Below, in pieces: positions 11,671 to 31,995 of a stretch of 39,617 bases of DNA. The notes under the pieces were generated by a model that was not told where the DNA came from, ran no database searches, and was given only the letters and a program-made list of their open reading frames with translations. The position numbers and the translations under genes are program-made. Each line of letters starts with the position of its first letter. Positions within the stretch are counted from its first letter, which is position 1. This DNA comes from a virus: positions 1 through 39,617 of IMG/VR virus record IMGVR_UViG_3300011253_000249. One strand, written 5' to 3'.

Positions 11671-12003
11671 CTAACATTTCCATCTACGTCTTGCAGCTTT
11701 ACCTCTTTCACCTGTCCAACCTTTTGATCTTGCGCAAAATGATTTTCTACGTTTAGCATCTTTACTACCAGGTTTTACTTTACCTGTTACTGCAGTTTTT
11801 AACTTACTACCTGGGTTTTTAGCTTTATAACTAGCAACACCTTTAGCAGTCATACCTGCTCCTTCTTCAGTTGTTCTAAAATTTCTACCTTTACCTTTAG
11901 TAGTTTTTCTAGGCTCGTTACTAGCGTTTAAAGGAGACATCATATAATTTCTTCTTCTGCCACATGAAGTGACTGGAAAAGGATGTTTATCTTGTTTATA
12001 CAT
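11671..12003 (-). CDS. Small basic Cys-containing phage protein (KSFCARSKGW family)
   Basis: A 110-residue, strongly basic protein with the run GKGRNFRTTEEGAGMTAKGV (about 37-56), then KNPGSKLKTAVTGKVKPGSK and KSFCARSKGWTGERGKAARR before a terminal WKC. I recall this C-terminal pattern from many marine phage proteins grouped as a domain of unknown function (DUF6321, from memory). The charge suggests DNA or RNA binding, perhaps as a minor packaged protein; inference only. It is the last gene of the - strand arm before the terminator at 11591-11625. Confidence 0.75.
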   Translation of the reverse strand: MYKQDKHPFPVTSCGRRRNYMMSPLNASNEPRKTTKGKGRNFRTTEEGAGMTAKGVASYKAKNPGSKLKTAVTGKVKPGSKDAKRRKSFCARSKGWTGERGKAARRRWKC

Positions 12004-15738: not shown

Positions 15739-18700
15739 TTAATTTTTACTATCATCTTTTTTTTCTTGTAGTTCGATTATTTTTTTAACTCTTGCTTCTT
15801 CGTATTTTAAAGCTTTTATTTGTTGTTTAGTTAATCCTAGTTCTAGCAATATTTCTTTTTGCTGTTTAGTACTAGTTTCTTTTTTCATTGTTGTAACTTT
15901 TTCTTTAAGTATCATTTGAGGTGTCATTTCAACTTTATCTTCTACACCATAATATGGTAAGCCTACATCCCATGTTGACCAACCTAAGGCCATCGCTACT
16001 TTTTGCCAGTTTTGAGAACTATTACTCATTATAGCTCTAATGTTATTCATTTTTTGTATAGCTCTATCTAAAGGTAAGTTTGTAAGACCAGACACAATTT
16101 GTGCACTAGCTAGATATGCGGGATTGTTTAAATCAAAACCTTTATTTTTGATATTTTCTCTTTCCCATGTAATAGTATTAGCACCTGATCTTAATTTTCT
16201 AAACTTAGAATCTAACGGCGGAGAAAAATCAAATAAATCATAAACAGCTTTTACAAATTTAGGTGATTTTTTATCATTTTCATTTGCTATAGTTATTAAA
16301 GAATTTTTAAGTGCTGACACCGCGGCTCCTTGTATACCTAAACCTCTAAGTAACGAGTCAGCCATACCGTTAGCTATTCTACCTTGCTTGTTTGATTGTT
16401 CTTCATCTTCTTCTTCATCTTCTCCAAAAGCTTCTGCAAATAAAGCATTTTGTAAAGCATTAAAAGCTATATTTTGTATTGCGGCATAATAAACTATTTT
16501 AGACACATTGCTTTTCCAATCACCCCTACCGTTTATAAGATCTTGACTAGCTCTTTTTATTATGCGGGCATACTGCATTGGTGTGTTAGCAAATGCTAAA
16601 ACTACACGACCAGCACCTGAAGCTTGTTGTTGTGATATTTTACTAGGATTACTAGACTGTTGGTTTTCTTCTGCGATAGCGTAAAAATCATCAAACGCTC
16701 TTTTTTCTGCTTCTTTTTGCGACATGCCATTTTTAAGGTAAGCGTCTAGTTGATTTCTATAAAAAGTAGCACCACCAGAAGCAATAGCAAAACTATCTGC
16801 TATTCTTGTAAATATAAAACCTTTATTAAGCAAATAGCTTATACCTGATTTAACTTTGTTAGAACTCTCTGCTACAGCATCTGCTATTTCAGATTCACTT
16901 ACGTTTATTTTTAAACCATTACGTCTTTCCACTAAATAAGGAGAGTTCATTAATGTTTTAAAATCTTTCCAAAACTGTGGCTGATTAGCAAAAGCTTTAC
17001 CTGCTTTATATATATTGTTATTACCAAAGTTTATAAAGTTTACAGCTGATAAAGTTTGTAGTACAGCAGATCTTGTATTTAAGAACATAACGGCACCAAC
17101 AGAATTGTTTAACCAATCTAATAATTGATTAACTATTCTAGAGCCACCTATTGGCCTATTAGAACCTGACTTCATCCTAGCTAATTGATCACGTAAAGCT
17201 TCTACATATTTAGGACCATAAGCAGCTTCTAGTTTATTCATGTTTTTATCGGAAAATATTATATCAACATTTTCTTGCCACTCTTGTAAATATTCTTTTC
17301 TATTAGATTTATTAATATCATTTAATATATCACTAGTAATATTACCACCTAACCAGTTTTGACCAGGTTTAGGATAAGGTTTACCTTTTTGTATTTTAAC
17401 TAGCTCGTCTGCAAACACGTTTAACTCAGAGTTGTTGTTTACAAAATCGTTTAATTCTTTTAAATCACGTTTAGATAAACCAGGAACTTCCATGCCTTGT
17501 CTAGTCCATACTGCAACTCTAGCAGCTTGACCAAATGTAAAACCTCCAATACCTGTTTGCTTAGATAATGACTTAGGTAATGTTTTTAAATTAGTTTTAA
17601 GAGCTTTAAATGAATTAGCAGCAGCTATCTTGGCTTTAGTAACAGCTATTTCAGCTCTATTATAAGGATCAATTAAATTGTCTTTGTAAAACTGAAACTG
17701 AGCGTCTCCTACTTTACCTTTACCTAACGTCTTGTACAGTAAACCTACAAAATCTTCTGCAGAAGGCGTTGTAAAGAAACTAAATCTACCTTTTGTAGCA
17801 CCAACAGTTTGAGCTCTTGCTGTTGAATATTCCTTAAAAGTTTCTATACCTGTAGAGCTTTCTAATATATTATTAAACACTCTGTCAAAAGTTTTTCTTT
17901 TACTAGCTTTAGCTAATTGAACGTCTGACTTAACGTCAACTTGGTTTAAAACTTCTTTTACAGCTTTTACATTTTGAGTAGCATCGTCAGCAAAATAAAA
18001 ATCATTGTATCCTTCAGCAGCTTTGCTTACAACCCAGTTTGCTTTAGCTTGAGCTGAACCATTTTCTAAACCTGTTATATTGCTTAATGGTAAATTTAAA
18101 CCTATACCATCTAAAAATGTTTTGATAGCAAAAGCTGATTGTTGTGGCCTTGCTGTTAATACAAATATATTATCGCTACCAAATTTACCTTGACGAGCTA
18201 ACGCTAGATCAGCTAATGGTCCTTTTTTGCCTTTAACCACTTTGTTAAACTCACTAAAATCAAAATTAGCTTCTTGTGATTCTAAATCTTCAGCTTGAGA
18301 AGCAAACTCTGTAGCACTTAGTTTTAAAACTTCACCGCTAGGCATTGTAACAATTACGTTAGATTTTGTTTTAGCTAATGTATCGTCAAAATCAAATATA
18401 CTTATACCTTTTCTTTTACTATTAAGTTGTCTAGCTTTGTCAGCAGCTTTGTCATAGTTTTCAAGTATTTCAATTTGTTCTTCAGTTGTTGCGGCTTGTT
18501 CTGTTTTAGCTCCGTTTGTTTCGTTATTAGAATTAAAAGCGTTTACTTCGCTAGGTATAATTTTTTGATAACTTTTAAAATCTGCTTTTGCTTGTTTTAA
18601 ATCTATTTCACCTGTTAACACAGCTGTAATTAATTCATTTGCTCTTGCTTTAGCTATATTAGACGTAACTTCTAAATCTTGCCCTTTAAGTCCATCAAAC

Positions 18701-21700
18701 ACAGTAGGTTTACCTACAAATAACTCACCTATTGTAATGTTTTTTCCAGCTATTTTATAAGCAAAAGGATTTATAGTATTATCAATACTGTACCTTATCA
18801 TTGATGCCATGCCGTCAGGTAAAAAATCTAGTTTTCCACTTTCAATTAAAGGAATTACAGAGTCATAATATTCTTGTGGCATTTTATCATTATAACCAGA
18901 TCTTTTTAAAGATAAATCTTCTATCCTATTTAAAGGTCCTTGCATGTAGCTAGCTTTTACTATAGGAAACACGTTAGATAAATTTCCTTCAATAGCTGCG
19001 TTTAATAATTGTCTTCCTACTTGTACAGCAGGCTCTGAATGTTCTTCTGTTGTTTGGTCCGTAGTATTTAATTCACCTGTTTTTAAATTAACAGGATAAA
19101 AACCAAATGGCGCTAAAAATCTTAAGGGATGGTTTTGATCTTTTGTGCCGTCTTTTAACCATTGTCTAAATATATATTCTTTGTCTTTATTTTTAGGTTT
19201 TTTTAAAAAAGTTTCAATACTAGAAAATATGTTTTCTAAAGTAGCAAGCTTTATTTTATTATCTGCGTTTACATTTTCTAAAACTCCTTGTATTAATTTT
19301 TTATTAGGTTTTAAAGCAACGTTGTATTTTTTTCTATTAACTGGTAGTTTCGATAAAAGACCTGGAAAAACAGAATCAAATATACCAACCTCTCCAAAAG
19401 TGTGTGTTTGTTTAGTTCCAGTCATTCCTGTTCTAAAAAACGGTACTAATTCAGGGTTATCTTTAAAAAACTCACCTAAATCTTCTTGCATTTTTATAAA
19501 CTCATCACTATTTCTATCGTATTGAGTTTGTTTTATTTCTTTTCCTTTTGAATTTATTCTTTTAAAATCAGTTATAGGTAACTTAGCATAATCAGCTTTT
19601 GAGTCTTTAGTTTCATTAATAGTCTCTGAACCTTTTCTTTTACTAAATTTAACTCCTGTGGTTTTTCTTTTAATAGGATCTGGTACAGCTGTTTCAAACA
19701 TTTTGTTTCTAAAAGATAATCCAGCTAAAGCTTTAGCTATAGTAGCATCTTTTGATCTGTATATTGGTTTATCTGTGTTTACAGAACCTATTAAGTTTTT
19801 ATAATCAGTAAGTGTTTTGCTTGAGTCTAGCTTCCATTTACCTTTACCGTCTTTAATGTATAAAGATTCTAAAATAGAATTAGGTATAAAAGTAGATTTA
19901 CCAGAACTATCATAAGCATCTGGAAGATTACTAAAGTCGGACTGAGCGTTAGCTGTTAAATACTGTCTTAAGTTTGTTAATCCTTTTAAATCTTTTTTTG
20001 CTATATTTCTAGACTTAATAGTAAATACTTCAGGATTTAAACCAAAAGCTTTTCCTAATACTTTACCTAATGCTGGGCCTAATTTATTTGTTTTAGCAAA
20101 TTTATCACCAACGTTCATGTTTAAAAGATCTGTTTCAATAGCCGTGTCTACAGCGGTTGCTACGTCAGATCCTAAATTTTCTTGTAATACAGAATTATAT
20201 ATAGCATCACCTTTTGGACTTTTTTTAGCTTTAACAGTTTCTGTTTCTGTAGTTACAGATGCAACTTCTTCTGATGTGTTTGTGTTTAATTCTGAAGATA
20301 ATCCTGTTCTTTCTTTTATAGCTAAATCAATTTCAGGTTTTCTTATTTTAATTGTTTTAGTTAAGTAAGTATTAACTTGAGCAGATGGAGTATCGCCATC
20401 TGGATCTAATGAAAAACCAGCTAAAGCACTTGTGTTTCTAGGTGAGTACTTACCGTTACCTGAACCTTGAAATTGCCCTAACATTTGATCAATAACAACT
20501 TCTTTTGCCGCATCCATCTCTGCTTCAGATTTTATATCTAAAGACTTACTTATTAAAGGCCAGTTTTTTTCTACAATCGCTTGGGCTATAGTAAATTGAT
20601 TCGAGCCTTCATTTTGTATTTCAGATATTAAACCTTGTTGTAAGACATCGTTGTCTAGCTCCATATAAGTCTGTGTATCTGCTGGTAATTTTCTTTTTGA
20701 AGATTTAGTTGTTGGTAAATCAACAGCTTCTATATCAGTGTCTACAATAGATTTATCAATGTCTTGATCTATTTCAGCACCTGTTTTAGCTGTTTTTAAT
20801 TGACCTAAACTAAGTCCTTTTCCTTTAGCCACAGAATTATTATAATCTTTTATAAAGTTTATAGCATCCGTTCCGTTTTTAAAATTAGCTTTAACACCTA
20901 AAGCACTTAATGCTCTACGTATAAAATTACCAATTTTACTACCAGTAGTTTCGTTTATAACAATGTGACCTTCAGTTAAACCTTCACTTAATAAAGTAAA
21001 AGCTTCTTCTAAAGTACTAGGGTTGTCATAATCAGGATCGTTAATATAAGCATTTAAACGAGTCTCAAATTCTTTAGTTTTAAACTCTATTTTACCACTA
21101 GCAACATCCAGTTTTAATTGGTTTATTAAATCTTTTCCTACACTTACAGCTACTTCAGGGTTTTTAGAAAAAGTTTGATTTAATACAGCGTGTAAAACTT
21201 CATGTTGTTTTGTAGTTATAACTCTATCTTCAGCTGCTATTTCTTGATTTACTACTATTTCAGTTCTTATCTCACCAGTCTCAGGATCTTTAATTTTTAG
21301 AAACGTACCGTAGTTAGTAGATGCTTTTTCGTCTACTTCAGCGCCATTAGCAATTAGTTCATTTACTTTTGTTTCAACCTCAGCAGTTGTTTTGTAGGCA
21401 TTAACTTCAGTGCCAACTTGACCAGCTATAATATCTGCGCCTTTATCTAATTTTTGAGAGGCTATGTTATTTAATTCTGTTTTCTTTAATTTAATTTCAG
21501 CATCAACATCAGCATGAAAAGCAGGGTCTAAGTTTTTCTTTTTATTTTCTAAATCAGATATCTCTTGCATTAATATAGATGAAGGTAAAGCTATAGAAGG
21601 ATCTGTGCCTGATGGTATTCCTGAAGATTGATTGTATACAGCTTTTCCATCAAACAAAAGTTTATCAGCGTTAGCTTGACTTATGTTTCCATTTATAACA

Positions 21701-24216
21701 TCGGTATTTAATCTAGACTTTACAGCGTCATAATTAGAACCTACGTAAAATAAATTTTGCAATTGTTTTTTTGGAGATTGGTATCTAGTTTCTACACCAA
21801 CCATAGCGCTACCAGCGCCAAAAGATAAAAGACTAGTTCTCCAAAAATCTTGGAAAGTATAGTCAGTATTTAAAATATCTTCACCAGCTCTATAATTAAC
21901 AAAAGCATTTATAAACTTTTTTTGACCTCCTTCTTGTATATTTTCTTGTCCAACTTCTTGAAAACCACCTCTAACTGTTTTTAAAGCAGACTCTGTAGTA
22001 GGTATTTTGTTTTTAAAACTTTTCATTAAAGAACTTGTAAAAGAACTAGGTGATTTAGTTTTTTTATAAGCATTTAAAGCATTTTTATACATGCTATTTA
22101 ATCCTAGTCTATTTTGAAATGTATTTAGATACGCGTTATTAGGAGCAACTAAACCTGTTACAGAATACCATAACCCTCCAGCAACAGCAGCTTCATCTGA
22201 TATTTTTTCTGCTTCATCATCAGTTATACCAGCATCAATTAATGATTGATATGTATCTTTTTTAGTACTAGCATACCCACTAAAACCATAATAAGCCATT
22301 TGACTAAAAGTGCTAGGGTTCATTTTAACAGCACTAACAACTTTACCTAATTTAGTTGCTTGAGTAAATTTACCTACACCGTACATACCAGCTATATCAT
22401 ATGCTAAACCAGCCACTAGGCCTGCTCCAGCCTCAACGCCGCCTCTAAAATTATAATCTGATCCATCTTCGCCGTTTTCGTCTATGTCTTTGTTTATTTT
22501 TTCTAACTCATCTTCAGATAAAGTTGTTTCTATTATACCTAAATCTGTATTGTATATAATACCTGCGTCATCTCTAACATAATTATATTCTCCACTTTTT
22601 GCTACTTTACCTTTAGCATAAAAAAAACTTAAATCATCTGCTTGGTCTAATATGTCTTTTTCATTTTCAACAAGTTTTAAAGCGCTCATACCATCTAAAC
22701 CAAACAAATCGCCAAATACATAAGCTGATTCTTTTAATTTACCGCGAACAGTATCGCTTATTGCTTCTATACTATTATCAATGGTGTCAAAACTACCTTC
22801 TAAATTATTGTCTTTTATTCTTTGTCTTTTTTCTTCTTTAGCTAACAACACTTGTTGTTTTTCATTTTCAACTAATTTAGGAAAGTTTTTTTCTTTGTAA
22901 GCTTTTATTTCACTAGGATTAAATAAAGGTATTTCTTTAACACCATATGTTTTTAAGAAATATTTTTGAGCTTTATTTTTTGCCTCTTCTAAAGAATTAG
23001 TTTTGCCAACAGCTTCTGGATTATTTTTTATCCAATTTAATTGAAGTTGTGTATTATAATCTTGTGTTTTTTTATTTAAATATTGATTAAAATAATTACT
23101 TAAATCTCTTTGTCTACCTAGCTCTTGATTTTCTTGAAACTTAGCGTCTCCTCTTCTGTTTAGCACTCCGTACTTGTCACCATCAAAATCATTTACATCA
23201 TTAGTATATTGATCAGCTAATCCTTTTTCTTTTAAATAACCAAAAAAATCATCAACATTAAGGTTTTTAACATCTTTACTTAGCTTTCCAAAATTATAAG
23301 CGTTTCCAACTGTGATCATAGCAGGATCTCCATCGTAATCTTCAGCTATACCAAACTTATCATCAAAAGGTAAATCTTTATATTCAACAAAAGAAAACTC
23401 TTTATTTAAATTATTATCTTTAATTTCTTTAGTTATTTTATCTTCTAAAGATAAATTATTATATTCAAACGCTGGTAATTGTACTCTTTGTTCGCTTGTA
23501 AGACCTTTTTGTTTTTTTTGAAACTCAAGCATCTTATTAATATTATCTTGTAAATTAGTTTCTACTTCCTCTTCATTAAGTTGAAGATTAGAAACATAAT
23601 TAGTAAAGTCTTTATCGTAATTTTTTTTAGCTAATTTATCTCTTTTTAATTTTTCTAAGTCTACATCAGCGTGACCAAAAACAGTAGCTACACCCATTAA
23701 ATCACCTTTTTCTTTAGTGGCTTCTGTAAACTCAGTGTCAGTTTTTAATTTTTGATAATACTTTACGTTACCATCTTTTACTTCATACTTATAATCATAC
23801 GTATCATCAAACTCTCCATAAGACTCGCCAGGTTTTGCTATTTTTGTAAATTCTTTAACTTTAGCGTTTTGTTCTTTTTGCTCAGGTGTTAATTTTATAG
23901 ATCTAAACTTACCTGTAAAATCAGTTTCAATATTATTCATGGCATCAGACATAAATTGTCTGCTACCAAAACCTTGTTTATTGCTAAGCGATGGTTGTAA
24001 AGCCAAAGAACCATCTTCCAATCCTAAAGCCGTATCGGATGCTTCTTCTGTTGTAGTTGTTACAGCTGCACCCGTCTGGTCTGCAACAACTTCTGTCTTT
24101 ACTTCTTCAACTTCTTCAGGTTTTGTTCTGCCTTTAAATTCTTGAGCTTTAGCAAATATTTCTTCGCTTGATAAACCTTGAGACTGTAGGTCTGTTATAT
24201 ATTCTAGTAATGTCAT
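15739..24216 (-). CDS. 2825-aa polyvalent virion/ejection protein with metalloprotease-like and HAD domains
   Basis: The largest gene, last of the virion block, in the position of T7 gp15/gp16 or crAss-like cargo proteins that are ejected with DNA. Residues 1-450 are charged and helical. About 590-720 contain Gly/Ala-rich hydrophobic segments (GLVAGLAYDIAGMYGVG) suited to membrane insertion. H1005-E-V-L-H1009 with E1070/E1071 downstream resembles a gluzincin metalloprotease. Residues 1938-2100 form a HAD phosphatase domain: FDFDDT (D1942, D1944), T2021 (VLTARP), K2058 and FADD (D2077, D2078). The C-terminal 700 residues are mostly helical with hydrophobic stretches near 2570 and an acidic run near 2598. 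SKRK occurs at 1173, 1525, 1933 and 2105. Overall role is inferred from position and architecture. Confidence 0.85.
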   Translation of the reverse strand: MTLLEYITDLQSQGLSSEEIFAKAQEFKGRTKPEEVEEVKTEVVADQTGAAVTTTTEEASDTALGLEDGSLALQPSLSNKQGFGSRQFMSDAMNNIETDFTGKFRSIKLTPEQKEQNAKVKEFTKIAKPGESYGEFDDTYDYKYEVKDGNVKYYQKLKTDTEFTEATKEKGDLMGVATVFGHADVDLEKLKRDKLAKKNYDKDFTNYVSNLQLNEEEVETNLQDNINKMLEFQKKQKGLTSEQRVQLPAFEYNNLSLEDKITKEIKDNNLNKEFSFVEYKDLPFDDKFGIAEDYDGDPAMITVGNAYNFGKLSKDVKNLNVDDFFGYLKEKGLADQYTNDVNDFDGDKYGVLNRRGDAKFQENQELGRQRDLSNYFNQYLNKKTQDYNTQLQLNWIKNNPEAVGKTNSLEEAKNKAQKYFLKTYGVKEIPLFNPSEIKAYKEKNFPKLVENEKQQVLLAKEEKRQRIKDNNLEGSFDTIDNSIEAISDTVRGKLKESAYVFGDLFGLDGMSALKLVENEKDILDQADDLSFFYAKGKVAKSGEYNYVRDDAGIIYNTDLGIIETTLSEDELEKINKDIDENGEDGSDYNFRGGVEAGAGLVAGLAYDIAGMYGVGKFTQATKLGKVVSAVKMNPSTFSQMAYYGFSGYASTKKDTYQSLIDAGITDDEAEKISDEAAVAGGLWYSVTGLVAPNNAYLNTFQNRLGLNSMYKNALNAYKKTKSPSSFTSSLMKSFKNKIPTTESALKTVRGGFQEVGQENIQEGGQKKFINAFVNYRAGEDILNTDYTFQDFWRTSLLSFGAGSAMVGVETRYQSPKKQLQNLFYVGSNYDAVKSRLNTDVINGNISQANADKLLFDGKAVYNQSSGIPSGTDPSIALPSSILMQEISDLENKKKNLDPAFHADVDAEIKLKKTELNNIASQKLDKGADIIAGQVGTEVNAYKTTAEVETKVNELIANGAEVDEKASTNYGTFLKIKDPETGEIRTEIVVNQEIAAEDRVITTKQHEVLHAVLNQTFSKNPEVAVSVGKDLINQLKLDVASGKIEFKTKEFETRLNAYINDPDYDNPSTLEEAFTLLSEGLTEGHIVINETTGSKIGNFIRRALSALGVKANFKNGTDAINFIKDYNNSVAKGKGLSLGQLKTAKTGAEIDQDIDKSIVDTDIEAVDLPTTKSSKRKLPADTQTYMELDNDVLQQGLISEIQNEGSNQFTIAQAIVEKNWPLISKSLDIKSEAEMDAAKEVVIDQMLGQFQGSGNGKYSPRNTSALAGFSLDPDGDTPSAQVNTYLTKTIKIRKPEIDLAIKERTGLSSELNTNTSEEVASVTTETETVKAKKSPKGDAIYNSVLQENLGSDVATAVDTAIETDLLNMNVGDKFAKTNKLGPALGKVLGKAFGLNPEVFTIKSRNIAKKDLKGLTNLRQYLTANAQSDFSNLPDAYDSSGKSTFIPNSILESLYIKDGKGKWKLDSSKTLTDYKNLIGSVNTDKPIYRSKDATIAKALAGLSFRNKMFETAVPDPIKRKTTGVKFSKRKGSETINETKDSKADYAKLPITDFKRINSKGKEIKQTQYDRNSDEFIKMQEDLGEFFKDNPELVPFFRTGMTGTKQTHTFGEVGIFDSVFPGLLSKLPVNRKKYNVALKPNKKLIQGVLENVNADNKIKLATLENIFSSIETFLKKPKNKDKEYIFRQWLKDGTKDQNHPLRFLAPFGFYPVNLKTGELNTTDQTTEEHSEPAVQVGRQLLNAAIEGNLSNVFPIVKASYMQGPLNRIEDLSLKRSGYNDKMPQEYYDSVIPLIESGKLDFLPDGMASMIRYSIDNTINPFAYKIAGKNITIGELFVGKPTVFDGLKGQDLEVTSNIAKARANELITAVLTGEIDLKQAKADFKSYQKIIPSEVNAFNSNNETNGAKTEQAATTEEQIEILENYDKAADKARQLNSKRKGISIFDFDDTLAKTKSNVIVTMPSGEVLKLSATEFASQAEDLESQEANFDFSEFNKVVKGKKGPLADLALARQGKFGSDNIFVLTARPQQSAFAIKTFLDGIGLNLPLSNITGLENGSAQAKANWVVSKAAEGYNDFYFADDATQNVKAVKEVLNQVDVKSDVQLAKASKRKTFDRVFNNILESSTGIETFKEYSTARAQTVGATKGRFSFFTTPSAEDFVGLLYKTLGKGKVGDAQFQFYKDNLIDPYNRAEIAVTKAKIAAANSFKALKTNLKTLPKSLSKQTGIGGFTFGQAARVAVWTRQGMEVPGLSKRDLKELNDFVNNNSELNVFADELVKIQKGKPYPKPGQNWLGGNITSDILNDINKSNRKEYLQEWQENVDIIFSDKNMNKLEAAYGPKYVEALRDQLARMKSGSNRPIGGSRIVNQLLDWLNNSVGAVMFLNTRSAVLQTLSAVNFINFGNNNIYKAGKAFANQPQFWKDFKTLMNSPYLVERRNGLKINVSESEIADAVAESSNKVKSGISYLLNKGFIFTRIADSFAIASGGATFYRNQLDAYLKNGMSQKEAEKRAFDDFYAIAEENQQSSNPSKISQQQASGAGRVVLAFANTPMQYARIIKRASQDLINGRGDWKSNVSKIVYYAAIQNIAFNALQNALFAEAFGEDEEEDEEQSNKQGRIANGMADSLLRGLGIQGAAVSALKNSLITIANENDKKSPKFVKAVYDLFDFSPPLDSKFRKLRSGANTITWERENIKNKGFDLNNPAYLASAQIVSGLTNLPLDRAIQKMNNIRAIMSNSSQNWQKVAMALGWSTWDVGLPYYGVEDKVEMTPQMILKEKVTTMKKETSTKQQKEILLELGLTKQQIKALKYEEARVKKIIELQEKKDDSKN

Positions 24217-26253: not shown

Positions 26254-27879
26254 TTATCTTGGTGCAAAAGTACTACTTACAGCAAACAACTCTTTTAATC
26301 CATTAGGATTTGTAGTTGCATCTGTCTTCATAGTAACTGTCGCGTAATAAGCTTTTATACCTGATGATTGGTTTCCAAAAATAACTTGACCTGGCAAAGC
26401 ATTTTGCAAGGTTGTTTGTGTGTTATTAGGTATAACTGCCATGTATTTATTTTGTTTTCTATCAAATCCTGCTCTATACTGAACACCGTTTTGTGTATAA
26501 GCCCCTTCTTGATAACTATATATTTTTCTATATTGAGTGTTTCCAGTACCTTCAACAATCGAGTCAGCATAGTTAATCCAATTTCCACCAACAGAGTTAA
26601 AACCTGTTTCGTCAGAAAGAAAAGAAGTAACTTCCCAACCACTAGTTCCTTCATAATTTATTGTTTGAAATGTCTTAACATTGTTTGGCGAAGGGTTAAA
26701 TACAAACTGTATAGATGATGGTTGTATTGGTTGGCCATAAAAACTATTTCTAGTTAAATTTGTGTTATGTTTATATATATTACTAGCATCGCCGTAATCT
26801 TTTGCTGAATAAAAATAACCTTGTGAGCTAAACATAGCGTCAGGTTTGTAAGTAAAAAAGCTTGTCCAACCTTTACTTCTTTCATCAAAGCTTAGTGTTT
26901 TGTATAAAGTTCCGTCTGGTTCGTATCTATTATTAGGTTGTATAGATAAAACATAGTTTTGTGTATAATTATCAAAAGCACCTAAAATAACACCAGTACT
27001 AGTAACAGAAGATAATGTATCTCTAAAGAAATCTATCATACCATAGTTTGATATTTCTGTTATATTACCACCTGCTAATCTTAATACAGCGTTTCTGTTT
27101 TTATCTACAAAATATTTCATATAACCATATGATGCGAATGATTCTGGATTTTGACTTATGCCCCAGTTACCAGCTATAGGCGTTATTTGGCCTATAACTA
27201 ATTTACCTGATGTTGTTATAGCAGAACCCTCGGCTGTGAATATAGCATCTTTATCTATTAAAGCGTTGTTAACTTTACGCTCTTGAAATATAAGTAAGTT
27301 AGTGTCTTCAGCAAATAACTTTTGTATTGATCCACTTATTGGGTCTACACTTCTAGTTATTTCTTCTGCTACGCTAAATTGATTTGTGTTGTTTATACCT
27401 GTTCTTGAATTAAATATACCAGAGTATATAAGAGATGACTCTCTACGCGTCTGAGCATCTTGTTCTTCAACTATATATGCTTTTACACCGTAATCAGTGG
27501 ATGTGTTATTATAACCTCCTCTAATGCGTGATTCTTCTATATACCAATCTTCATCTGGGTTGGACGCTTGAGGCCCTGACCAATCATAACCAAAAGTATA
27601 AACAGCTAGATTAGTTGTAGTAATAGCTTTATCAAGTCTAAAAGTAGTTTGATTAGTAACGGTTACTACTTTAGTTGGAACAGTTACTCCAGATCCAGTT
27701 ACAAACATACCAACAACCACAGGAAACGAGCTACTAGAAAAAGTAACAGGTTGACCAGCCGCAATAGTAGCAGATGATGTAGCGTTTCTAGTAATTGCCA
27801 CACTAGGAATATAAGGCACATCGGCTAATCTCTTCACATAGTATGAGTTAAAATAAGAAACTTCTAGTGTTAATGGCAT
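26254..27879 (-). CDS. Tail nozzle/stabilization-type protein
   Basis: A 541-residue beta-rich protein. Segments such as EDWYIEESRIRGGYNNTSTD (about 109-128), GIFNSRTGINNTNQFS and ENPESFASYGYMKYF-like repeats (ISQNPESFASYGYMKYFVDK around 247-266) recall, from memory, tail nozzle or stabilization proteins of P22-like and crAss-like phages. Residues about 30-95 hold a small beta insertion (VGMFVTGSGVTVPTKVVTV) of a type found in many marine phage virion proteins. It likely forms part of the distal tail tube. Order and strand agree with a tail gene following the 1361-aa hub protein. Confidence 0.78.
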   Translation of the reverse strand: MPLTLEVSYFNSYYVKRLADVPYIPSVAITRNATSSATIAAGQPVTFSSSSFPVVVGMFVTGSGVTVPTKVVTVTNQTTFRLDKAITTTNLAVYTFGYDWSGPQASNPDEDWYIEESRIRGGYNNTSTDYGVKAYIVEEQDAQTRRESSLIYSGIFNSRTGINNTNQFSVAEEITRSVDPISGSIQKLFAEDTNLLIFQERKVNNALIDKDAIFTAEGSAITTSGKLVIGQITPIAGNWGISQNPESFASYGYMKYFVDKNRNAVLRLAGGNITEISNYGMIDFFRDTLSSVTSTGVILGAFDNYTQNYVLSIQPNNRYEPDGTLYKTLSFDERSKGWTSFFTYKPDAMFSSQGYFYSAKDYGDASNIYKHNTNLTRNSFYGQPIQPSSIQFVFNPSPNNVKTFQTINYEGTSGWEVTSFLSDETGFNSVGGNWINYADSIVEGTGNTQYRKIYSYQEGAYTQNGVQYRAGFDRKQNKYMAVIPNNTQTTLQNALPGQVIFGNQSSGIKAYYATVTMKTDATTNPNGLKELFAVSSTFAPR

Positions 27880-27909: not shown

Positions 27910-30900
27910 TTACAGTGGACCAGTGCAAGCACCACTTGAATAAGTAGCATCTCCAAAGTCTACAAAGAAAGCAGCTGTACCACTACCGGCGCTACACCCT
28001 TCTCCACTTATATTTGTTGATACTACTCTGTATTCTCCAGGAATACTAAAGTTTTTTGTATCACTATCAGGAGTTCCATTTGAAGCAGATAACGGTATAG
28101 CGTTTATAACATTGTTGCTAGTATCTACAGCTTGCGACCAAGTTGTTGTTCCAGCGTCTCTACGTTGTATCGTGTAGTATACTGTTACTGAACCACCACC
28201 TGGAGACAAGGTTGATGTTAAAGTTGGTTTTAAAAACATAACACCTTGGGTTAACGCACCTGTTGTAGGTGTTCCAGCCGCGGTGTAACTAGCTCTAGCG
28301 TTGTAGTTAAAATTTGGTTGTGGAAAAGAAATGTTAACGTTAGGATTTGCTTGAGACTGAACTGTTATTGGCCAACTAAACGTAGGGGTTGATGCTGACA
28401 CTAAAAACACTGTTTGAAGACTTTTACCACAATCAGTAGGAGTTGTACCTTCTCTTCCTTCACATATAACTCTATTAACATGTTGAATACCAACAGTAAA
28501 ACTTATAGAACAAGTAGTTGATAACCCTGCCCCGTCTACATCTCTTACTCTTGCTACAACCGTATACGTTGTTAAATCTACTAAAACATTAGGGTTTACA
28601 GTTAACACGCCACCAGTGCTCATATTAAATTGAGAATTAATTAGTGAGTAATTAGCTTGAGATGGATCTAAATCAAAAGTTAATTGTTGTGTTTGATTAA
28701 CAACATAAGCACTTCCATTTTTTGCAGTAAAAGTTTTTATTGTTGTTGTTGTTGATTCTATTCCAGTTGGATTAGAACAGTCGTCAAATGTAGGTGCTAC
28801 ATTTTGTAAAGTAGCTATATAAGACATGTAACTTGTGTAAGAAACTCCTCCTGGTGGCGTGTATATTACTTTTATAGTAATATTATATATACCGTTTGAC
28901 GGCGTGTTAGCTGTACCTGTTCCGTACCAAAAAGTAGGACCAGCGGTATCTAAATCATAAGCAGCGTCTGAACCTGAGTGAGTTAATGTAAATAAACTTT
29001 TTACATCATTACTAGAATTATCTTGTGTAAAAGCAGATTCTAAAGTAACATTTAACAAACTGTTATCAGTTACTGTTGTTCCACCGCCTGTTATAAAACT
29101 TATACTTTGCCCTATTTTTGTTCCAGCAACAGCGCTTTCTAAAAAAGAAGCAGAAGAACTAGTTAAAGATGTTATTCCAGGTTCTTGTGAATTTATTAAA
29201 CTATTTAAAGTATTAAGTTTTCCTTGTAAAGATGTTTCCCAAAAAATTTCTAACAAAGAATATACTGGTTTAGTTTCAGCTACGCTTAAAAAAGGTACCA
29301 TGCTTTGAATGTTTGCAACACCTAAAGCGTTTGAATTTGTTATTGCTCCAACTCCACCTGGCACAGTAGGAACATCAATAGCATTTAAAGCAACTTTTCC
29401 ATTTGCAGTAGTATCTATTTTTATGGCAAAAGGATTTAAATCAGAATTATAAAAAGGTTGAGCTACTGGAGACACACCCCATGGTATTGACCCAATACTA
29501 ACAGGAGTTGTATTGCTACCAGTAACAAGCGATCCAACTTGACCATAATCTCCTTGAGGAGCATTACTAACAAAAGGTATTGCTGCTATTTCCATGTCTC
29601 TAATTGTTGCTATAGATAACACTTCTTGATCTTCAAAACCTGGAAAATATTGTTTATTCCAAGGTGTAAATTTTAATGGGTAACCATAAGGTCTACCTGC
29701 TTTACCGTTTATGTTAGGATTGTTTACTCTAATATATAAAAGCTCACCACTACTATATTCTCTATCTGTTGGTCCAACTTCTTGTAAATCTCTAGGTACT
29801 TTATTTATATTATCGCTAAGTAAAACTGAAAAAGAAGTATCGTTTTCATCTTCACTTCCTGTTATAGGTAAACCATTTACAAAGCCTGGTAAATAAACAT
29901 TGTAATACTCTTGCTGTTGTTGTTTGACAACTACTTTGTAAGAATACCAACCCAAAGGATTAGTTGTTGCATTCCAAACTCCAGGTTGTCCTGGAAAAGA
30001 TGTGCCAGTTTCAGTACCTATTGTACTGTCTATTTTAACTTGTAATGTGTCTCCTAACCAATTAATTATAGGGTCAGCGTTTTGTTCATTATAAGTATTG
30101 TAGTTAGAATAAACAGTAGATCCTTGTGTGCCATCTAAATTATCATAAGATGATAATATAACATCTGACTGCCTACCATATCTATCTGATAACACAAAGC
30201 CAACTTGGTACGTTCTATTTTGTTTTAAATTATGATAAGGGTATTGAACAAAATTATAATTATATGGTCTTTTTTTATCAACCAACGCGCTAAAAGGTAT
30301 TGAATCAGGACCACTGTGTTTGTCTACGTAATTACCATAAACAACTCTGTTGCCTATCATTTCTTGCGCTAAAGCTTTTATTGGTACTTTGTCATACACT
30401 CTAGTAGTTTGACCTTGTGGTAATGTCTTATATGGTTTACTTGAAGCGTAGTCATAAGAGTAATAATAAGTATCAACTTCTCCATTAACAGGATCTTTAA
30501 AAGGTAAACTTGGAAAATTTGTTGATTGGTTTGGTAATGATGTAACGTCTACAGTGTCTAATACCTTTACAGCTAAAGCATCTGACTCTTTATATAACAA
30601 ATCAATATCTGTTATAAGAAGATTAGATATATTTAAAGCAGGACTAGAATAAGGCATAGGTGTTTTTAATACAATATTTTCAATATTGTTTTCAAACCAA
30701 TTTAAAATCGTTGACTTGTAAGCATTATCCATGTCTGTAGTCAAAGTGTTTTTACCAGCTCCAAAAGAACTATATTGTTTAGGTATAAACATTGGCTGAC
30801 TAAAAGGCGCCATTAAAGAATACTCGTTATCTTCAAACTTAAACCTATAGCTAAACCTTACAAACTTATCTTCTAAAAAAGCGGCATCACCTTTCCAAGC

Positions 30901-31995
30901 GTTATCGTAATCTTGGTTTACACCAATTTTAACCACAGTGCCGTTTGTTGCTGTTATTGTTTTTGAAAAAGTTAACGTCCATTTAATCGTGTCTAATCCA
31001 CCATAGCTAGCCACAGCGGTTATTATGCTTGTGTCTACAGGTATATTAGTTCCAGTTATTATGTCTCCTATTTTTGGTATTATATTTGGTGAATCAGCTG
31101 TAGAGTCTACTAATATACTATAAACAGGACCAGCAGCAACAGTTAATGAAGTTTTAATACCGTTAGATAAAAGTTCTGATGTTTTGTTTGTCATCGTAGG
31201 TCTTTGCGCAACTAATTTAAAATTATTTGGAGCAGTCATTGGTTCTGACAAAGTTAAAACATTACCGACTATAGCAACAATGTAATTAGCTTTATTCCAT
31301 TGAGATGCAGGACTTGGAAATAAAGAAGGAGCAATAGTATCATATGGGGCTATTGTATCACCTATTTTAACACCAGTTGCGCTAGCTAGTGTAATTGTTT
31401 TTGACGCTGAGACAGCGCCGTTTAAATTTGTAACAATTCTATCAAAAACTATTATAGGTTCGCATGGCGCGTACTTAGCTACAGATATTTGATCTTCATT
31501 TTGATAATGAGTTGGCGTTGTTATGTTACCTGGATTAGCTAGAGATATGTTTATTTTTCTAGGTTGATTTAAATTATCTGTAAAAAACAATAAATCTTCT
31601 ACAAGATTAACTCCTAACATAGGAAAAGATTTATTAAAATTTAAAAATCCACCTGTTACTAAAGTCTTTTTTACGTTAGTATTAAGGTCTAGTTCATATA
31701 TAAAATTATCAGCGCTTGTAGATCTTACACCGTCTACATTATTATAGCTAGTAGCAAACAAATAAACTTTGTTAGTTGTTTCATTTACATAGTGACCTAT
31801 TATAACCGCATTGTCTCCATTTAAATTAGATACAGAAGTGTTACCTAAAACATTTTCAAACTCACCAACAGTTGATCCTTCTGATCTACTAATCATTAAG
31901 TTTATAGCTTCTCTATACTCACCGTTTGGCAGTAATCGAGAGTCAAGATCTTGATTCATTTTACCTTTTAAAAAGGTATTTTTAATTTCTGCCAT
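27910..31995 (-). CDS. Large tail hub/muzzle-like protein with Ig/cadherin-like C-terminus
   Basis: A 1361-residue beta-rich protein. The N-terminus (KNTFLKGKMNQDLDSRLLPN at 5-24, followed by GEYREAINLMISRSEGSTVG) is, as I recall, characteristic of P22 gp10-related nozzle/muzzle proteins of crAss-like phages. About 193-265 and 288-350 hold two small beta insertions (KIGDIITGTNIPVDTSIITA). The last 300 residues change character: Thr/Ser-rich Ig or cadherin-like domains (LTVNPNVLVDLTTYTVVARV around 1140) with scattered Cys up to the C-terminus. The front half likely forms the tail tip and the back half contacts the host surface; the adhesion role is inference. Confidence 0.8.
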   Translation of the reverse strand: MAEIKNTFLKGKMNQDLDSRLLPNGEYREAINLMISRSEGSTVGEFENVLGNTSVSNLNGDNAVIIGHYVNETTNKVYLFATSYNNVDGVRSTSADNFIYELDLNTNVKKTLVTGGFLNFNKSFPMLGVNLVEDLLFFTDNLNQPRKINISLANPGNITTPTHYQNEDQISVAKYAPCEPIIVFDRIVTNLNGAVSASKTITLASATGVKIGDTIAPYDTIAPSLFPSPASQWNKANYIVAIVGNVLTLSEPMTAPNNFKLVAQRPTMTNKTSELLSNGIKTSLTVAAGPVYSILVDSTADSPNIIPKIGDIITGTNIPVDTSIITAVASYGGLDTIKWTLTFSKTITATNGTVVKIGVNQDYDNAWKGDAAFLEDKFVRFSYRFKFEDNEYSLMAPFSQPMFIPKQYSSFGAGKNTLTTDMDNAYKSTILNWFENNIENIVLKTPMPYSSPALNISNLLITDIDLLYKESDALAVKVLDTVDVTSLPNQSTNFPSLPFKDPVNGEVDTYYYSYDYASSKPYKTLPQGQTTRVYDKVPIKALAQEMIGNRVVYGNYVDKHSGPDSIPFSALVDKKRPYNYNFVQYPYHNLKQNRTYQVGFVLSDRYGRQSDVILSSYDNLDGTQGSTVYSNYNTYNEQNADPIINWLGDTLQVKIDSTIGTETGTSFPGQPGVWNATTNPLGWYSYKVVVKQQQQEYYNVYLPGFVNGLPITGSEDENDTSFSVLLSDNINKVPRDLQEVGPTDREYSSGELLYIRVNNPNINGKAGRPYGYPLKFTPWNKQYFPGFEDQEVLSIATIRDMEIAAIPFVSNAPQGDYGQVGSLVTGSNTTPVSIGSIPWGVSPVAQPFYNSDLNPFAIKIDTTANGKVALNAIDVPTVPGGVGAITNSNALGVANIQSMVPFLSVAETKPVYSLLEIFWETSLQGKLNTLNSLINSQEPGITSLTSSSASFLESAVAGTKIGQSISFITGGGTTVTDNSLLNVTLESAFTQDNSSNDVKSLFTLTHSGSDAAYDLDTAGPTFWYGTGTANTPSNGIYNITIKVIYTPPGGVSYTSYMSYIATLQNVAPTFDDCSNPTGIESTTTTIKTFTAKNGSAYVVNQTQQLTFDLDPSQANYSLINSQFNMSTGGVLTVNPNVLVDLTTYTVVARVRDVDGAGLSTTCSISFTVGIQHVNRVICEGREGTTPTDCGKSLQTVFLVSASTPTFSWPITVQSQANPNVNISFPQPNFNYNARASYTAAGTPTTGALTQGVMFLKPTLTSTLSPGGGSVTVYYTIQRRDAGTTTWSQAVDTSNNVINAIPLSASNGTPDSDTKNFSIPGEYRVVSTNISGEGCSAGSGTAAFFVDFGDATYSSGACTGPL

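Follow-up and report, generated by a model that had tools for sequence, protein, structure and literature searches.

A short motif recurs at the module junctions of a giant phage protein family and may mark protease sites

The question raised by the uncultivated virus record IMGVR_UViG_3300011253_000249 of IMG/VR (39,617 nt; hereafter the window, the whole stretch of DNA analysed) is whether a tetrapeptide, SKRK, that occurs four times in one giant protein marks the points at which that protein is divided. An original prediction, made from the DNA alone, had placed the copies at residues 1173, 1525, 1933 and 2105 and taken them for cleavage sites or modular tags. These positions and their contexts were verified in the following open reading frame (ORF), in which a HEVLH sequence stands at residue 1005:

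15739..24216, minus strand: giant virion-type protein of 2825 aa, the ORF bearing all four SKRK copies

Comparison with related proteins, giant virion-type proteins of putative marine Bacteroidota-type phages, suggests that a short linear motif, [KM]-[FY]-S-[KR], punctuates the module junctions of the family from an HExxH metallopeptidase-type domain to the C-terminal domain, that its sites are putative protease sites freeing the modules, and that SKRK is a local dialect of it. We give this explanation about an even chance of being right.

From the composition of the protein, 0.06 copies of SKRK are expected, and four copies were reached in none of 5000 shuffled sequences. After correction for the post-hoc choice of the motif, some 4-mer occurs at least four times in 47 of 1000 shuffles (~5%), so that the repeat alone is modestly surprising. 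The latter figure fits a chance origin, in which a 4-mer arose by coincidence in a protein rich in Lys and has nothing to do with the family signal, as do the lack of literal SKRK in most homologues and the alignment of the third copy with an unrelated TPKK. However, the alignments pair copies 2 and 4 with family sites, and a K[AS]SK[KR] dialect is limited to the window lineage. We consider chance a very improbable account as a whole; at copies 2 and 4 it has largely been refuted, and at copy 3 it stands. Persistence of SKRK at the junctions of homologues did not hold up in the alignment, where the exact word is not conserved: across about 70 IMG/VR homologues it is nearly absent, occurring at most once in a few proteins and never at the junctions used in the window. 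For the exact word, such an absence is an outcome that the original prediction had named as refuting it.

The looser motif, in contrast to the exact word, is a property of the family. We fetched 80 IMG/VR relatives of the giant protein and counted motifs in 71 long homologues, the window protein included. Three or four copies of FSRS, KFSK or FSKA are found in several of these. Between the N-terminus and the HExxH motif, [KM][FY]S[KR] is at background (5 occurrences vs 4.8 in shuffled sequences), as it is in the C-terminal domain (3 vs 4.8), whereas 42 occurrences lie in the segment that runs from HExxH through the HAD region (7.1 in shuffled sequences, with a maximum of 18 in 200 shuffles) and 19 at the junction of the HAD and C-terminal domains (0.5 in shuffled sequences). 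Junction sites found only downstream of the conserved HExxH domain are what cleavage punctuation predicts. Controls by motif position agree: among [KM][FY]x[KR] matches in the middle region x is Ser 42 times and the runner-up, Asn, 17 times. Other ORFs of the homologue loci contain 9 matches vs 7.7 in shuffled sequences, and four of these nine are fragment copies of the giant protein; separately fetched relatives from genome bins contain 10 vs 1.2 (maximum 6 in 500 shuffles).

Relatedness among the homologues does not explain the enrichment, because it stays significant when one random member is taken from each of 24 clusters of the C-terminal domain (12 vs 2.4, p = 9e-6) and within single proteins bearing four sites (L017, L038, L082 and L031; p from 4e-6 to 8e-6 each). 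A position weight matrix of the whole site, built from the fourth junction with its flanks, was also tried; its enrichment was weak, as the signal is confined to the four-residue core and missing from the flanks. No clear motif was seen in three LPD38 proteins, whose genomes belong to the phylum of bin L087, and a scan for DNA encoding KYSLKDS retrieved a single contig; we therefore claim the motif for the giant-protein family only.

The placement of the sites is clearest around one enzyme module:

17905..18408, minus strand: HAD phosphatase-like module, residues 1937-2104, with FDFDDT and VLTARP motifs and a match to PHROG 415

A Pfam search of the whole 2825-aa protein returned zero matches, and its sole family match is a weak one to PHROG 415 (polynucleotide kinase; E = 0.0033, residues 1932-2105). 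This match falls between SKRK copies 3 and 4, in agreement with the original placement of these copies around a HAD domain. The catalytic motifs are present, with FDFDDT at residue 1941 and the T-A-R and D-D residues near-invariant in alignment A1. The best in-class Foldseek match of the module, the Ceg4 HAD phosphatase 6aok, was not significant; no PDB sequence was matched by the HAD region, and Foldseek with the multi-domain model gave zero significant matches. Many homologues carry a P-loop kinase of the AAA_33/zeta-toxin type (E down to 5e-16) inside this module, between FDFDDT and the later HAD motifs (L031, L033, L045, L046, L059, L060 and L082); the window protein has none. Judged from these domain matches, HAD with an inserted kinase would form a polynucleotide-kinase-phosphatase-like combination in an injected-type protein.

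The family motif brackets the HAD module with or without the kinase, its sites lying just outside the module. The site pair around a bare HAD domain is 168-190 residues apart (L009, L016, L017, L047 and L078; a kinase scan of L009, L017 and L047 found none), and the spacing is 365 residues where the kinase is inserted (L031, L033, L046 and L060; also L050, which was not scanned for the kinase). L036, with 365 residues to the fourth junction and no HAD domain, was left out of this argument. The spacing bears on a different explanation, in which the motif is a linker element that stays uncut, acts in docking or packaging, for example by binding DNA, the portal or an internal core protein, and is repeated for avidity. 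Its confinement to one protein, its basic residues, the position of sites 1 and 2 in linkers and the conservation of four residues only are all compatible with docking. A binding signal, however, need not border one enzyme module on both sides and shift with its edges, and the lack of strict copies in half of the family argues against an obligate packaging signal. We regard docking as unlikely, although it is the strongest of the rivals to cleavage punctuation.

The serine codons give independent information on the origin of the sites. At the second to fourth junctions the motif Ser is encoded by AGY in 48 of 53 cases (15/17, 14/17 and 19/19, respectively), compared to 38% of all serines (Fisher p = 1e-15); the figures are 3/8 at the first junction and 2/8 among chance matches elsewhere in the protein. 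Since no single step converts an AGY serine codon into a TCN one or back, the bias points to common descent of the sites with a serine that was never lost. The sites of one protein also resemble one another: positions 0, 3 and +4 of the motif tend to be alike, whereas the flanks (-3 to -1 and +6 to +8), which serve as an internal control, do not. After thinning to one member per cluster, this within-protein homogenisation gave p = 0.002 at position 0, 0.017 at position 3 and 0.069 at position +4, values that are approximate since the permutations treat sites as exchangeable.

A serine codon class shared by non-homologous junctions, and resemblance within proteins, would also follow from copying, if the motif were a footprint of modular evolution in which linker DNA acted as a joint for domain shuffling or duplication and has no function today. 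Against this stands the sharp limit of conservation: nucleotide information is confined to the four motif codons, whereas unselected joints would lose their amino acids as the flanks have. The same limit indicates that the amino acids are what is kept, and a nucleotide-level element or recombination joint was rejected for want of clear information beyond the four codons. We hold a functionless footprint to be rather improbable. A shared reader, for instance a protease, would be expected to leave tags that flank enzyme modules, keep to the stretch from the peptidase to the C-terminal domain and drift jointly in each protein. The window lineage provides an example of such drift: K[AS]SK[KR] occurs nine times in the family, eight of them in the window protein and its two nearest relatives, and because of this near confinement, with one exception, SKRK is taken as a lineage variant. 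As far as the alignments go, K[F/A/S]SKRK is the form that the looser family motif takes in the window lineage.

The four copies in the window protein are not equivalent. They are located as follows:

20689..20706, minus strand: site 1, KSSKRK, residues 1171-1176, in a linker with predicted local distance difference test (pLDDT) values below 50 (model positions 172-221)
19633..19650, minus strand: site 2, KFSKRK, residues 1523-1528, an exact KFSK family motif
18409..18420, minus strand: site 3, SKRK, residues 1933-1936, eight residues ahead of the HAD motif FDFDDT
17893..17910, minus strand: site 4, KASKRK, residues 2103-2108, aligned to the fourth junction of the homologues

In an AlphaFold2 model of residues 985-2180 (mean pLDDT 75.5), site 1 lies in a disordered stretch (1156-1205) and site 2 starts a linker with pLDDT below 50 (residues 1525-1564, model positions 541-580), while site 4 coincides with a local confidence dip (63) before the C-terminal domain. 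Site 3 occupies an ordered loop directly before the first HAD strand, of which the KG that follows it is a part. The claim that SKRK always follows a polar linker thus holds only in part: disorder is predicted at copies 1 and 2, copy 4 has its short dip, and copy 3 is in ordered structure. Site 2 aligns with KFSKKK, KFSKAK and MFSK of homologues and has the Ser codon AGT. At the fourth junction, L082 reads QQAKFSKTKVFDRVFNDIIE where the window protein reads QLAKASKRKTFDRVFNNILE, and other homologues have AKVKFSKNAS, AKTKFSRSAS or QAKFSKNQR after the HAD domain; the exact motif [KM][FY]S[KR] is present there in 19 of 71 homologues and [FY]S in 40 of 71. The first junction carries assorted xSK or KFSR forms in many homologues, which gives site 1 moderate support as a family site. 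The counterpart of site 3 in the nearest relatives is TPKK, SPKK or APKK. Judged by alignment, the copies at 1525 and 2105 appear to be members of the family set and the copy at 1173 is a probable one, whereas the copy at 1933 is probably not a family site, the relatives' pre-HAD site lying elsewhere upstream. Of the broader claim of cleavage sites or modular tags, recurrent junction sites downstream of HExxH remain, with much stronger backing from the family analysis than the four SKRK copies gave; the exact word SKRK drops out, as probably does its third copy.

Two further disordered stretches of the model contain no SKRK. One of them (residues 1251-1279, pLDDT below 50) holds KYSPR at residues 1256-1260 (window 20437-20451, minus strand), which may be an additional degenerate site.

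A candidate reader of the motif is encoded in the same polypeptide, immediately upstream of site 1:

20728..21399, minus strand: zincin-like metallopeptidase-type domain, residues 940-1163, with HEVLH at 1005-1009 and a distal Glu1071

HExxH is present in 66 of the 71 proteins, and the only invariant columns of alignment A3 (32 sequences) are H66, E67, H70 and E132. The AlphaFold2 model of this domain (pLDDT 90, predicted template modelling score 0.83) shows the order N-terminal helix, strands, HExxH helix, insert and Glu helix; apart from the insert, this is the order described for polyvalent-protein zincins, in which the strands form a three-stranded sheet. The zincin fold assignment rests on motif and topology, because Foldseek searches of PDB and BFVD gave nothing significant.

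If the motif serves as a protease recognition site, it could be read by this metallopeptidase or by another phage or host protease. Cutting of the window protein would then free a ~350-aa piece, a ~400-aa piece and the HAD phosphatase, either ahead of packaging or following cell entry. In the window lineage, the motif would have drifted to K[F/A/S]SK[K/R]. A more specific version is that K-[FY]-S-[KR] constitutes a dedicated, evolvable cleavage code, in which several effector modules are released by a single protease and, as the specificity of this protease changes, the tags at all junctions of a protein drift together (KFSK to FSRS to KFSKT to KxSKRK); we put this forward tentatively, as somewhat more likely to be wrong than right.

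Several observations weigh against cleavage by the protein's own peptidase or against cleavage altogether. The homologues L034 and L041 have EELFH at the HExxH position, so that their peptidase looks inactivated from its sequence, and they keep their KFSK sites. This retention weighs against simple self-cleavage and fits a docking signal; a protease acting in trans is possible. The presence of HExxH has no predictive value for the presence of the motif (Fisher p = 1, with only five proteins lacking HExxH), and the strict motif is absent from 37 of 71 homologues. In the window protein, the serine of site 1 is encoded by TCA, outside the AGY class, and site 3 lacks homology to the family motif. 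KFSK-type sites are absent from the middle region of gp74 of Tenacibaculum phage Gundel_1, the sole cultured relative found. Finally, the N4 virion RNA polymerase, which has a peptidase domain of this kind, is packaged uncleaved according to PMC5512222.

The idea of a processed polyvalent protein is a known concept, to which the junction motif adds a new element. According to a proposal by Iyer et al. (2017; PMC5512222), injected polyvalent proteins are divided into functional units by metallopeptidases of this kind. The window protein resembles the polyvalent proteins described there in its giant multidomain architecture, its zincin-type peptidase domain (HExxH plus distal Glu) and its varied enzymatic modules: peptidase-type and HAD domains share one polypeptide, with the AAA_33/zeta-toxin-type kinase added in homologues. 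It differs in that no named polyvalent Pfam domain was found in it and its C-terminal domain matches no LPD domain. Phage P1 DdrB and the N4 polymerase, both injected or packaged, have a peptidase domain of this kind, and PMC5512222 reports that DdrB is cut ahead of packaging; no repeated junction motif is reported for either in what was read, and the terms searched turned up no inter-domain cleavage motif in that paper. The open-access literature searched likewise yielded no such junction motif. The prohead protease gp245 of the giant phage SPN3US acts on several head proteins, cutting them at a degenerate short motif (AXE) that some of them carry in multiple copies (PMC10052503). This system is similar in having a short degenerate motif, with multiple copies in some proteins. 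In contrast to the giant-protein family, its motif is another one, a single protease serves many proteins, and the cuts identified, self-cleavage aside, remove N-terminal propeptides rather than separate modules (PMC10052503). With a junction motif, polyvalent self-processing could be put to a direct test by point mutation and mass spectrometry, and sequence would suffice to call domain borders in giant phage proteins that cannot otherwise be read. If the protease were confirmed, the motif would represent a small transferable cleavage tag.

Downstream of site 4, the protein ends in a region free of the motif:

15937..17883, minus strand: conserved C-terminal domain, residues 2112-2760, with a mean column identity of 53% over 35 homologues

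Neither these 35 homologous domains nor the whole protein matched LPD38 (PF18857), and no other Pfam family was convincing in the C-terminal domain. The C-termini of about 20 homologues, but not that of the window protein, bear one to three copies of a Cys-rich tail, RC.A.K..G.RCK...KCY (for example L031 2712-2783, L050 3763-3789 and L044 3460-3522), which looks like a small zinc-ribbon by sequence.

A tblastn search of INPHARED with the window protein found nothing, and the C-terminal domain of L033 retrieved the very distant gp74 of the cultured phage Gundel_1 (Pachyviridae, a podovirus). This 2482-aa protein, annotated as 'structural protein', is alike in its giant size, the proximity of a portal gene and the presence of HExxH, and differs in its limited similarity (28% identity across 141 aa of the C-terminal domain) as well as in its middle region. 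The adjacent genes of the window encode a portal, a weakly matched SU10-type adaptor, other virion proteins, ribonucleotide reductase subunits and an M15-type endolysin. These neighbours and the gp74 annotation suggest virion delivery of the 2825-aa product, which would then be an ejection protein. The genome bins holding relatives, which can be mixed, mostly have Bacteroidota names and suggest a Bacteroidota-type host for the window phage. An Aliivibrio bin contains L082, L084 and L085 and a Woesearchaeota bin L086 and L092; both are unlikely hosts, and these are probably mis-binned virus contigs.

Elsewhere in the window, 11671-12003 (minus strand) encodes a small protein with DUF6321 and a strong match to PHROG 10346, specifically to the C-terminal end of this 525-aa family of unknown function, and is possibly an end domain that was split off. 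The products of 27910-31995 and 26254-27879 (both minus strand) match the 1474-aa PHROG 14478, one at its start and the other in a later part (940-1222), as if a single virion protein of relatives were encoded by two genes in the window.

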